A stretch of 35,598 nucleotides of DNA from Dokdonella immobilis. GTDB taxonomy: Bacteria > Pseudomonadota > Gammaproteobacteria > Xanthomonadales > Rhodanobacteraceae. Below, piece after piece: positions 5,369 to 15,498 of the stretch (position 1 is the stretch's first letter; the number at the start of each line of letters is the position of its first letter). Below the pieces are notes generated by a model. That model was not told where the DNA came from and did no database searches. It saw nothing but the letters and a program-made list of their open reading frames with translations. The stretch spans positions 1 through 35,598 of the forward strand of contig NZ_FOVF01000019.1 in the NCBI RefSeq assembly GCF_900115085.1, written 5' to 3'. A program made the translations under genes and the position numbers.

Positions 5369-5413
5369 TATGATGCGCGCCTTTATTTATCCATCCATCC
5401 GCATTGAAGGATA
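5369..5413 (+). promoter_or_regulatory. metK promoter -10 and candidate methyl-cycle operator
   Basis: TATGAT at 5369-5374 is a good -10 box; I see no convincing -35. At 5396-5413 lies CATCCGCATTGAAGGATA, an imperfect palindrome (ATCC, eight bases, GGAT) that overlaps the AAGGA ribosome-binding site at 5407-5411. The same layout occurs at the ahcY (12680-12697) and metF (15477-15494) promoters. A repressor of SahR type would fit by function, but no regulator gene is in the window. I found no SAM-riboswitch elements in this leader. Confidence 0.5.
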
Positions 5414-5422
5414 TATGACGCA

Positions 5423-6622
5423 ATGAGCAGCACCCTGTTCACCTCCGAATCGGTTTCCGAAGGCCACCCGGACAAGGTCGCCGACCAGATTTCCGATGCC
5501 GTGCTCGACGCCATCCTGCTGCAGGACAAGCGCGCCCGTGTCGCCTGCGAGACCATGGTCAAGACCGGCGTGGCGATCGTCGCCGGCGAGGTGACCACGA
5601 GCGCCTGGATCGACCTCGAGACGCTGACCCGCAAGGTCATCCTCGACATCGGCTACAACAGCTCGCATGTCGGTTTCGATGGCGAGACCTGCGGCGTGCT
5701 CAACCTGATCGGCAAGCAGTCGCCCGACATCAACCAGGGCGTCGACCGCAAGAAGCCCGAAGAACAGGGTGCCGGTGACCAGGGCCTGATGTTCGGCTAT
5801 GCGACCAACGAAACGAAGGAGTTCATGCCGGCCGCGATCTACTACTCGCACCGCCTGGTCGAACAGCAGGCCAAGGTGCGCAAGAAGAAGAACTCGCCGC
5901 TGCCGTGGCTGCGTCCGGATGCGAAGTCGCAGGTGACCCTGCGCTACGAGGATGGCGTCGCCGTGGCCATCGATGCGGTAGTGCTGTCGACCCAGCACGA
6001 TCCGTCGGTCAAGCAGAAGGACCTGATCGAGGCGGTGCGCGAGCATATCCTCAAGCCCGTGCTGCCGGCCAAGTGGCTGCACAAGGGCACCAAGTTCCAC
6101 ATCAACCCGACCGGCAAGTTCGTCATCGGCGGCCCGGTCGGCGATTGCGGCCTGACTGGACGCAAGATCATCGTCGATACCTACGGTGGCTGGGCCCGCC
6201 ATGGCGGGGGCGCATTCTCGGGCAAGGATCCGTCCAAGGTCGATCGTTCGGCCGCCTATGCGGCGCGCTACGTGGCCAAGAACGTTGTCGCGGCCGGCAT
6301 CGCCGACCGGTGCGAGGTGCAAGTCAGTTACGCAATCGGCGTGGCCGAGCCGACCTCGATCTCGGTAACCACCTTCGGCACCGGCAAGATCGCCGACGAG
6401 AAGATCGAGAAGCTGATCCGCAAGCATTTCGACCTGCGCCCCTACGGCATCATCAAGATGCTCGACCTGGTCCATCCGATGTACCAGCGCACCGCCAGTT
6501 ACGGGCACTTCGGCCGCGCGCCGGAGCTGGTCAAGCTGGCCGATGGCTCGTCGTTCACGGCGTTCTCGTGGGAGAAGACCGACAAGGCCGAGGCGCTGCG
6601 CTCGGACGCGAAGCTGAAGTAG
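5423..6622 (+). CDS. metK: S-adenosylmethionine synthase
   Basis: Makes S-adenosylmethionine from methionine and ATP in the cytosol. The 399-residue product has [18 protein letters not shown] at the N terminus, [12 protein letters not shown] (about residues 115-126) and [16 protein letters not shown] (about 256-271), all canonical for MetK. The chosen ATG has AAGGA 11 bases upstream; an ATG at 5415 opens only a three-codon frame. It is a monocistronic unit, closed by a hairpin at 6637-6661. It is one of three methyl-cycle genes here with a common palindromic site near the promoter. Confidence 0.97.
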
Positions 6623-6636
6623 CCTCCTCCCAGGTA

Positions 6637-6661
6637 CCCGCCGGCCTCCGCCGGCGGGTTT
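6637..6661 (+). terminator. metK terminator
   Basis: An eight-base stem CCCGCCGG/CCGGCGGG (6637-6644 and 6651-6658) with a six-base loop, followed by TTT, 15 bases after the metK stop. The T tract is short. Confidence 0.75.
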
Positions 6662-6748
6662 CCCGGATTCCATGCATGCAGTAGGCTTGAAGGCCTAACG
6701 GCATGCTTGCGCTCCCTTTCAGCATGCCATCCACTTCTGGAAGACCGC

Positions 6749-12818: not shown

Positions 12819-14249
12819 ATGAATGCCGTCGTAAAGAACACCCCGGATACCGATTACAAGATTGCCGATATCTCGCTGGCCGAGTTCGGCCGCAAGGAAA
12901 TCGACATCGCCGAGCACGAGATGCCTGGCCTGATGTCGATCCGCAAGAAATACGCCCCGAGCGCCCCGCTCAAGGGCGTGCGCGTGACCGGATCGTTGCA
13001 CATGACGATCCAGACCGCGGTGCTGATCGAGACCCTCAAGGACATCGGCGCCGACGTGCGCTGGGCCTCGTGCAACATCTTCTCGACCCAGGATCACGCC
13101 GCCGCCGCGATCGCGGCTTCGGGCACGCCGGTGTTCGCCTGGAAGGGTGAGACGCTCGAAGAATACTGGGACTGCACGCTCGATGCGCTGACCTTCCCGG
13201 GCAACAAGGGTCCGGAGCTCGTCGTCGATGACGGCGGCGACGTCACCTTGCTGATCCACAAGGGCTACGAACTCGAAAATGGCTCCAAGTGGGTCGACGA
13301 GCCGGCGTCCTCGCACGAAGAGCAGATCATCAAGAACCTGCTCAAGCGCGTCGCCAAGGAACGCCCGGGCTTCTGGCATTCCGTGGTCAAGGACTGGAAG
13401 GGTGTCTCCGAGGAGACCACCACCGGCGTGCACCGCCTGTACCAGATGCTCGAGGCCGGCAAGCTGCTGGTCCCGGCCATCAACGTCAATGACTCGGTGA
13501 CCAAGTCGAAGTTCGACAATCTCTACGGCTGCCGCGAATCGCTGGCCGATGGCCTCAAGCGTGCGATGGACGTGATGCTGGCCGGCAAGCTCGCCGTGGT
13601 CTGCGGCTATGGCGACGTGGGCAAGGGTTGCGCCCATAGCCTGCGCGCCTATGGCTCACGCGTCGTTGTCACCGAAATCGATCCGATCAATGCCCTGCAG
13701 GCGTCGATGGAAGGTTTCGAGGTCAACACGGTTGAATCGACACTCGGCCGCGGCGACATCTACGTGACCACGACCGGCAACAAGGACGTGCTGACCGTCG
13801 AGCACCTCAAGTCCATGAAGGACCAGGCCATCGTCTGCAACATCGGCCACTTCGACAACGAGATCCAGGTCGATGCGCTGCACAAGGTCGAGGGCGTGAC
13901 CAAGGTCAACATCAAGCCGCAAGTCGACAAGTTCACCTTCAAGGGTGGCAGCTCGATCTTCCTGCTCGCCGAAGGTCGCCTGGTCAATCTCGGCTGCGCG
14001 ACCGGCCATCCGAGCTTCGTCATGTCGAACTCGTTCTCGAACCAGACCCTCGCGCAGATCGACCTGTGGGCGAACAAGGACCGCTACGAGAACAAGGTCT
14101 ACATCCTGCCGAAGAAGCTCGACGAGGAAGTCGCCCGCCTGCACCTCGAGAAGATCGGGGTCAAGCTGACCACGTTGACCAAGGACCAGGCCGCCTACCT
14201 CGGCGTGCCGGTCGAGGGCCCGTACAAGCCCGAGCATTACCGCTACTGA
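12819..14249 (+). CDS. ahcY: adenosylhomocysteinase
   Basis: Hydrolyses S-adenosylhomocysteine to homocysteine and adenosine with bound NAD, relieving inhibition of methyltransferases. The product is 476 residues from the ATG at 12819 (GGAG at 12807-12810); a longer in-frame reading from 12702 would run through the riboswitch and is rejected. Motifs: [12 protein letters not shown] (about residues 58-69), the substrate region [22 protein letters not shown], the NAD-binding GYGDVGKG (from residue 263), and the C-terminal KPEHYRY. Regulation appears double: a palindrome at the promoter and an SAH riboswitch in the leader. It converges on the diguanylate cyclase gene with nine bases between stops. 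Confidence 0.97.
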
Positions 14250-14258
14250 GTCACCGCT

Positions 14259-15416
14259 TCAGCCGGCGGGCGCAATGCCCGCCGGCATCGGTGCAGCGCC
14301 TGACTGCGCGCGCTCGGTCCTGTTGCGGCCGGACAGCTTGCTCCGATACAGCGCGGCATCGACTTCGAGATACAGGGCATCCGCGTCGGCATGACGGGCG
14401 GGATCAAATTCGCCGCAGCCAATACTGACGGTCACCACTGAGCGGTTATCAGCAAAGGCCAGCGCCTCGCTTTCGAGCGCCTTGCGGAAGACTTCGGCAC
14501 GCCCCAGGGCAACGTCTTCCGGCGCATCGAGGACGACACCGAACTCCTCGCCACCGAGCCGGGCCACGACGTCGCCTGGCTGGTCGAAGAGGTCCTGAAG
14601 GCGCCGCGCCATGGCGACCAGGCAGGCATCCCCGGCGGAATGCCCGAAGCTGTCGTTGATGCGCTTGAAATGATCGATATCGAGGATCAGCAGGGAAGCC
14701 TTGCCGCCCCTTCGCGCGCGGGCGAGCGCCCGGGACAGCGCCTCGGTGAAGGCGCGCCGGTTGGCGATACCGGTCAGGCTATCGTCCAGGCTCTGCTTTT
14801 CGAAAAGGTCGCGTTGCCGGCGCAGGTCTTCCTCGAGTTCGAGGCGGGTCCGGTACTCACGGTAGCTGCGCAGCAGCACCAGCATCATGTAGCTCGCATA
14901 GACCAGCCACATGATGGCCACGCCGGGTGCCACGAAGCGCCAGAGCAGGAGCCCGCTCGGCAGCATCACCGAGGCGATGGCGACTGCGCATGGAATCCGG
15001 CGCATGCACATGGAATGCGCGAGGGCCATGCCGAAAGCACCCGAGAACAATACGGCGACCAGCGGCGCCGGTTCGGGCAGCTCAAGGAAGGACCACGCGC
15101 TGAACGCCCCCCAGGAAAACGTCGTCAGCAGGATCAATGACCAGATCCGCAAGAGCTGGCGCCGGATCTCGGACCCGCCCGCATTCGCAGAAACGCGCAA
15201 CGCCAGCCTGGCAAGGGCAAGCAGGGTAAAAAGGCCGGTGACGGCAAGCGCCGGGACAACGTAGACCCGGCTCGTGACCAGAAAGCCGAGACCGGTCGCC
15301 ATCGGGTAGAAGAAGCCGCCGAGCCGCGCACGCTCGAGGGTCTCGCGCAATTCCTGCAGCAGCAGATTGCGTCCGCCTGGAGTCGTCGGGGCAGGAATGA
15401 ACGAGTCGGTAGCCAT
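14259..15416 (-). CDS. membrane diguanylate cyclase (GGDEF)
   Basis: Makes cyclic di-GMP from two GTP. From the ATG at 15416 the product is 385 residues. The N-terminal half has about six hydrophobic segments (about residues 36-185: FYPMATGLGFLV, YVVPALAVTGLFTLLALA, LILLTTFSWGAFSAW, LVAVLFSGAFGMALA, VAIASVMLPSGLLL, VAIMWLVYASYMMLVLL), a sensory membrane domain of unassigned type. A coiled segment (about 186-210) leads into the cyclase domain with DSLTGIANRRAF, DIDHFKRINDSFGH (246-259) and the active-site GGEEF (288-292). The inhibitory I-site, RxxD five residues before GGEEF, reads QPGD (279-282), so product inhibition is probably lost. The start is moderately sure: no ribosome-binding site is visible. 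It diverges from metF across 109 bp. Confidence 0.88.
   Translation of the reverse strand: MATDSFIPAPTTPGGRNLLLQELRETLERARLGGFFYPMATGLGFLVTSRVYVVPALAVTGLFTLLALARLALRVSANAGGSEIRRQLLRIWSLILLTTFSWGAFSAWSFLELPEPAPLVAVLFSGAFGMALAHSMCMRRIPCAVAIASVMLPSGLLLWRFVAPGVAIMWLVYASYMMLVLLRSYREYRTRLELEEDLRRQRDLFEKQSLDDSLTGIANRRAFTEALSRALARARRGGKASLLILDIDHFKRINDSFGHSAGDACLVAMARRLQDLFDQPGDVVARLGGEEFGVVLDAPEDVALGRAEVFRKALESEALAFADNRSVVTVSIGCGEFDPARHADADALYLEVDAALYRSKLSGRNRTERAQSGAAPMPAGIAPAG
14262..14286 (+). terminator. hairpin between ahcY and the convergent cyclase gene
   Basis: A perfect 10-bp stem GCCGGCGGGC/GCCCGCCGGC with a five-base loop, 12 bases after the ahcY stop. It lies inside the last codons of the opposite-strand diguanylate cyclase gene. 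No T tract follows. It probably ends ahcY transcripts. Confidence 0.65.
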
Positions 15417-15468
15417 GAGGCGCAGTAGGCCATTTTCCGAGCGCGCGCGCGAGTGGGCACAAGCCTTA

Positions 15469-15498
15469 TGTACATCTATCGCGATGAAGCGATAAACT
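15469..15498 (+). promoter_or_regulatory. metF promoter with candidate methyl-cycle operator
   Basis: TATCGCGATGAAGCGATA (15477-15494) is a perfect six-base inverted repeat, TATCGC/GCGATA, around GATGAA. It fills the space between a weak -35 (TGTACA, 15469-15474) and the -10 TAAACT (15493-15498), 18 bp apart. The same 18-bp pattern occurs at ahcY and metK. The site also lies 61 bp upstream of the divergent cyclase gene and could affect both. Confidence 0.6.

Follow-up and report, generated by a model that had tools for sequence, protein, structure and literature searches.

SamR is an ArsR-type homolog of SahR for which Leyn et al. 2014 (PMC4239095) predicted a role in controlling methionine and S-adenosylmethionine (SAM) genes in Xanthomonadales. 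The published targets are metK, metF, metH, metB, metE, metX2 and hom, the motif is a 24-bp palindrome with ATC and GAT separated by 10 nt, and samR adjoins metH in Xanthomonas. Table 1 of that paper gives four Xanthomonadales genomes, with MetJ in none and MetR in three of the four, and SamR is placed in 4 genomes in PMC5343134. In the regulon as described by Leyn et al., metK is the sole SAM-cycle gene; this was taken to favour SAM as the effector, although the authors called the question unresolved. The core targets of SahR (Novichkov et al. 2014, as cited in PMC4239095) are sahR, ahcY, metH, metF and metK. Here we describe three palindromic sites located before metK, ahcY and metF in a stretch of 35,598 nucleotides from Dokdonella immobilis (contig NZ_FOVF01000019.1, positions 1 to 35,598; hereafter the window). 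Our best explanation, which we hold with high confidence, is that SamR uses all three sites as operators. It would act on them as a repressor, most likely one answering to S-adenosylhomocysteine (SAH), and control of ahcY would then take place at two levels.

Two of these genes, metK and metF, are already published SamR targets, and ahcY is apparently a new one. Among the papers listed by our literature searches, which left most subscription journals outside their scope, we found no report of SamR at ahcY and no experimental test of SamR.

Three arrays in the window

An initial annotation of the window had described one 18-bp palindrome pattern shared by the three promoters, and had proposed that these activated-methyl-cycle genes share a dedicated repressor. 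The three 18-mers were located on the plus strand exactly where they had been placed, starting at 5396, 12680 and 15477. For scoring we used a SamR matrix made from 61 distinct 24-mers, which are the sites upstream of samR in other genomes, the own genome being excluded. With this matrix the window gives 22.8 at metF, 22.6 at ahcY and 14.7 at metK as the sole hits scoring at least 14, followed by 7.2. Among 200 dinucleotide shuffles of the window, none had three hits of at least 14 and two had at least one. The observation as a whole is confirmed, as these are the best three sites of the window under an independent matrix derived from samR, and the recovery of all three by a SamR matrix supports the dedicated repressor.

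The loose pattern of the initial annotation gives 4 strand-hits in the window (the self-complementary metF site counts twice) against 0.33 expected, and 4 hits were reached in one of 100 shuffled windows. This pattern was fitted to its own three sites, and the matrix, having been trained elsewhere, is the fairer test. In the 4.64-Mb genome the loose pattern is found at 34 distinct places (40 rows, six self-complementary places appearing twice) and YATC-N10-GATA at 57. Pattern searches pulled in 51 own-genome loci, some hits having no locus, and a simple open reading frame (ORF) caller put 38 of the 51 inside an ORF; the 51 include four real targets, and the metF site is counted among the 38 by a miscall in which the divergent ORF was over-extended. 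Because of these 34 places and these 38 loci in ORFs, the loose pattern alone is insufficient to carry the operator claim. High frequency elsewhere had been named beforehand as a point that would tell against the shared site; the loose consensus is indeed common genome-wide, but within the window the matrix singles out the three sites.

A scan of the whole genome had also been suggested, with attention to ArsR-type genes. We ranked 58 core-bearing 18-mers, that is all 57 YATC-N10-GATA places plus samR, and the top three sites were metF (21.4), samR (21.2) and ahcY (20.6), samR being an ArsR-type gene preceding metH. The next site, at 17.6, lies in an ORF. Other high-scoring 18-mers, on contigs C59, C64, C77, C54 and C58, were rejected as all lie inside ORFs according to the simple caller, and the C64 and C54 sites stay below 10 when scored as 24-mers. 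A site at C38:5373 scores 14.0, and whether it lies in a short ORF varies with the caller used. Allowing one mismatch, CATC-type sites occur at samR, at ahcY and at nine other places in the genome; eight of the nine had loci, and all eight were called in ORFs. A pattern hit at C65:52914, 36 bp before the start of folA, was also dismissed, since on inspection by eye it looks like the last coding part of the preceding gene, and none of the 30 folA upstreams of the family reaches 9 (own genome 5.7, next 4.0).

The 18-mer of the initial annotation is real, but it is only part of the operator, and a further half-site 8 bp upstream had been missed at metK and ahcY. The complete form of the array is YATC-N4-YATC-N2-GATR-N4-GATR, which means two overlapping ATC-N10-GAT dyads and a length of 24 bp from the first ATC to the last GAT. 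In each array of the window, three of the half-sites are clear and the fourth is degenerate (Table 1). Positions outside the matrix repeat this form in other genomes: for operators scoring at least 12, the extra ATC at -8 is present in 23 of 24 at ahcY, 26 of 32 at metK and 23 of 42 at metF, and a GAT at +22 is present in 61 of 69 samR sites. The samR site is closest to the complete form, 60 of its 69 examples having the inner ATC at +8.

The geometry was described correctly before: in ahcY and metF the site merges with a putative -10 box, and in metK it lies over the Shine-Dalgarno region. The ahcY operator spans the expected -35 to -10 region. In the aligned upstreams of metK and samR, a putative -10 precedes the array, which covers the Shine-Dalgarno region. 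Leaderless metK and samR mRNAs, with the operator GATA serving as -10, were considered and dropped, as the aligned upstreams show -10/-35-like elements further up. Both array positions would suit a repressor. Because the arrays cover either the core promoter (ahcY, metF) or the leader and ribosome-binding region (metK, samR), SamR most likely represses. On the minus strand, at 14259-15416 of the window, a GGDEF-domain gene (141.3 bits) starts near 15416 and is divergent to metF; the metF operator might act on this gene too.

SamR and its predicted sites across the order

In this genome (G000), samR encodes a 308-aa winged-helix protein and precedes metH on another contig, C76, with CATCTTTCAATCAAGATG, the same kind of site, directly before its start codon. 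The segment C76:17302-17439 is the strongest of eight HTH_5 matches in the genome (64.2 bits), and the only match to the MetH C-terminal domain is on C76, 3.7 kb from this HTH_5 match, with samR upstream. The SamR protein combines HTH_5 with Methyltransf_11. Two features described for the SamR regulon are found together here, namely samR beside metH, and ATC-10 nt-GAT at the three window sites and at samR. Of the published targets, the comparison covered metK, metF and samR-metH, and these have sites. SamR is most likely the regulator of the three sites, because its gene precedes metH with a site of the same kind and because a matrix of samR-upstream sites finds all three; samR itself is probably autoregulated in this way. 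The initial annotation had named SahR-type regulators and had listed SamR for comparison, but had stopped short of equating them with its motif.

Of 200 genomes searched in the order, 186 have a SamR match (E <= 1e-50). We sampled 69 of the 186 samR upstreams, 30 being the best matches and 39 being chosen to span other families. YATC-N10-GATR is present in all 69, metH follows on the same strand within every fetched stretch, and a DxxSGDG loop of the methyltransferase-like domain is invariant across the 69 aligned SamR sequences.

The comparison of orthologous promoters proposed earlier shows that the sites recur. At metK, 32 of 46 upstreams score at least 12 (25 of these 32 at -23 to -28), and at metF 42 of 65, loci with short upstreams or unaligned starts being excluded from both counts; riboswitch-bearing ahcY follows with 24 of 75. 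In all 13 genomes fetched from families f8-f10, metK shares the strand of ahcY and stops shortly before it, and in 12 of them metK is preceded by a site of at least 12. One f5 locus (L237, genome G004) has metK, a SAH riboswitch (54.1 bits), ahcY and metF consecutively, with a SamR-type array of 20.9 before metK, and here the riboswitch would lie inside a putative SamR operon.

Predicted operator and riboswitch at ahcY

The earlier picture of ahcY control was incomplete, as it missed a SAH riboswitch between the operator and the gene (Table 1). Our ahcY sample consisted of 90 upstreams out of 191 AhcY-bearing genomes of the order, and 75 of these have the riboswitch core according to a word search. 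An operator of at least 12, in all cases at least 14, is found on 24 of the 75 riboswitch-bearing leaders, covering 15 of 37 genera and the families f1, f2, f3, f4 and f12. The promoter scores are bimodal, with 24 at 14 or above and then 11.8, 11.5, 9.1, 6.5 and lower. In a control, one of 916 segments of 250 bp reaches 12, these segments being flanks of ahcY loci that are unmatched for intergenic status. When 19 ahcY loci were compared with Rfam, the SAH aptamer was confirmed in 17, the remaining two being the negatives from f8 and f10.

Additionally, we used a second set of 28 out of 80 AhcY loci (Lysobacterales, one proteobacterium and one metagenome-assembled genome (MAG) of Nevskiales), from which Pseudoxanthomonas L059, with its short upstream, and the loci of other phyla were left out. 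Operator and riboswitch occur together in 8 of the 28, including two Dokdonella, Pseudoxanthomonas sacheonensis, one Thermomonas and the Nevskiales MAG. A combined operator-riboswitch pattern searched across the class matched the own genome as the sole one of 274; the pattern needs the exact riboswitch core and a short spacing, and with two other genomes of the order included it carries little weight within the order.

These results suggest that ahcY is under two-level control by the same metabolic cycle, through a promoter operator and a SAH riboswitch. Expression would then need both derepression of the promoter and a SAH-bound leader, i.e. logic of the AND type.

The AhcY protein itself (loci L151-L240) falls into two types within the order. 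A quick tree of 106 rows (LG+G4, supported by the Shimodaira-Hasegawa-like approximate likelihood ratio test only) splits AhcY of f5 and f7-f10 from that of f1-f4, f6 and f12 (support 100, branch 0.79). The latter group with sequences from Verrucomicrobia and Acidobacteria, a grouping that is suggestive only, since these outgroups were chosen by similarity to the window protein. The window AhcY has about 61-65% identity to the listed f5/f7-f10 proteins and 73-81% to the Verrucomicrobia and Acidobacteria loci, and a gene replacement is possible. When the operator is used as a label on the tree (27 with, 48 without, cut-off 9), at least 15 changes are needed, gain and loss not being distinguishable. 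On balance we favour a history in which many genera have ahcY with two stacked methyl-cycle sensors, SamR and the riboswitch, in which the operator has repeatedly come and gone, and in which the present AhcY type may have replaced the metK-ahcY type of f8-f10.

Two neighbours of ahcY were also recorded. An M90-type metallopeptidase (PF06167) lies upstream of it at 11165-11953 of the window, and in a genome of the same genus (G031) a thiamine pyrophosphate riboswitch (66 bits, L160:3142-3236) stands on the opposite strand beside the SAH riboswitch of ahcY.

Table 1. Coordinates of genes, predicted operators and promoter elements in the window
Feature	Position	Strand	Basis and remarks
Putative metK -10, TATGAT	5369..5374	+	Sequence; TATCAT/TATGAT recurs by eye in many aligned metK upstreams
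SamR operator (predicted), metK	5388..5413	+	TATC-CATC-CATC-CG-CATT-GAAG-GATA, inner right half-site degenerate; matrix 14.7; earlier 18-mer 5396-5413
metK, SAM synthetase	5423..6622	+	TIGR01034, 604.8 bits
SamR operator (predicted), ahcY	12672..12697	+	TATC-CTTC-CATC-GC-GAAT-AAGC-GATA, inner right half-site degenerate; matrix 22.6; earlier 18-mer 12680-12697
Putative ahcY -10, TATACT	12696..12701	+	Fused to last GATA of operator; orthologs GATATAAT/GATATACT
SAH riboswitch aptamer RF01057, ahcY leader	12714..12800	+	cmscan 45.2 bits, gathering 37, E 2.2e-5
ahcY, adenosylhomocysteinase	12819..14249	+	TIGR00936, 628.7 bits
SamR operator (predicted), metF	15469..15494	+	TGTA-CATC-TATC-GC-GATG-AAGC-GATA, outer left half-site degenerate; matrix 22.8; earlier 18-mer 15477-15494
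Putative metF -10, TAAACT	15493..15498	+	Fused to last GATA of operator; sequence
metF, methylenetetrahydrofolate reductase	15526..16377	+	TIGR00676, 328.8 bits

Regulator, effector and related systems

Several results weigh against SamR operators at all three genes. The metK 18-mer scores only 8.9 and ranks low, its flanks carrying the score of the 24-mer. Of the half-sites that make up the ideal array, the inner GAT (+6) occurs in just 10 of 24 ahcY and 22 of 42 metF operators, and in less than 30% of those at metK. Most riboswitch-bearing ahcY promoters (51 of 75) score below 12, three of them between 9 and 12, and the palindrome is absent at ahcY in all eight Xanthomonas and Stenotrophomonas loci. 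The metF upstream of G031, of the same genus, has no site of at least 9, and this genome keeps the sites at ahcY (25.1) and metK (20.0). Another genome, G055 (86% complete), has an ahcY site of 16.6 and no SamR match at E <= 1e-50. Furthermore, the matrix is not fully specific, as C20:67470-67487 (L364:2471-2488) reaches 16.3, and the lack of matching in the control segments should be counted here as well.

It is conceivable, though we think it improbable, that SamR binds at metK, metF and samR only, and that what is seen at ahcY is for the most part a conserved promoter instead of an operator, consisting of the GATATAAT -10 box and what stands upstream of it. GATATAAT without the left half-site persists in several operator-less genomes, and ahcY is not listed as a SamR target by Leyn et al. 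(PMC4239095). However, the ATC 14 bp before the last GATA and the further ATC another 8 bp upstream, each present in 23 of 24 operators, are not known promoter features, and the bimodal ahcY scores and the single control segment of 916 that reaches 12 also speak against this reading. A different ArsR-type protein of the genome binding the sites is a still more remote reading. The eight HTH_5 matches offer candidates for it, and a small ArsR-type gene (HTH_20) on C20 starts with a similar palindrome, TATCCATTATTCTGGATA, at the C20 position given above; but the window sites resemble the 61 distinct samR-upstream examples from other genomes, and metH follows samR in 69 of 69 fetched stretches. 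In two 99%-complete g26 genomes without a SamR match, moreover, metK (2 of 2) lacks any site of at least 9, as does ahcY (1 of 1 fetched), a comparison that covers two of the 14 genomes without a match. The C20 place itself was set aside as a SamR target, being likely the own site of the adjoining ArsR-type regulator; an SBF-family transporter (PF01758) lies downstream of that gene, possibly in an arsenic operon.

With SamR as the most likely regulator, the effector is the point on which the readings divide. The methyltransferase-like C-terminal domain would most likely read SAH, DNA being released as SAH rises, as reported for SahR. We lean towards SAH, because the targets would then be those of the SahR core and because the characterised relative SahR is SAH-responsive (Novichkov et al., as cited in PMC8877191). 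A variant of our explanation, differing in the effector only, has SAM as co-repressor in a MetJ-like manner, so that ahcY would read low SAM at its promoter and high SAH in its leader, that is the SAM/SAH ratio. This variant is the less probable of the two, although a serious one, and its effector, SAM, is the one preferred by Leyn et al. (PMC4239095) with the reservation cited at the outset. They had argued from the lack of SAM-cycle genes besides metK, and with ahcY apparently in the regulon in 15 of the 37 genera sampled, an argument for SAM only that rested on the absence of ahcY is weakened.

Under either effector, ahcY would be controlled both at initiation (SamR) and in the leader (riboswitch). 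With SAH as the ligand of SamR, this would amount to a two-step, high-gain SAH switch; with SAM as its ligand, the SAM/SAH ratio, or methylation potential, would be computed at one gene. Such an arrangement, in which a protein sensor and an RNA sensor of one cycle act on a single gene, would, if true, be a clean natural system for studying layered control of the response to a methylation by-product.

Compared with the SamR regulon of Leyn et al. (PMC4239095), the present one agrees in the type of regulator, the samR-metH neighbourhood, the ATC-N10-GAT core and the targets metK and metF, and the array of 24 bp has the length of the published palindrome, an equivalence that we draw from length alone. 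It differs in that a predicted operator is present at ahcY, both in this genome and in further genera of the order. The SahR regulon likewise has an ArsR-type regulator, and its target set is the same once samR replaces sahR; however, SamR is a distant homolog with about 30% identity according to Leyn et al. (PMC4239095), and the motif described for SahR is a palindrome of 20 bp. Like the known SAH riboswitch RF01057, the one described here has its aptamer in an ahcY leader, and it scores above the gathering threshold, whereas the promoter above the aptamer here also bears a predicted protein operator. The hom-metXC operon of Oceanicaulis alexandrii, the one genome named, concerns another gene, another riboswitch class and another lineage, but with a SAM_alpha riboswitch and SahR (PMC4239095) it provides a precedent for a riboswitch and an ArsR-type methionine regulator acting on one operon.

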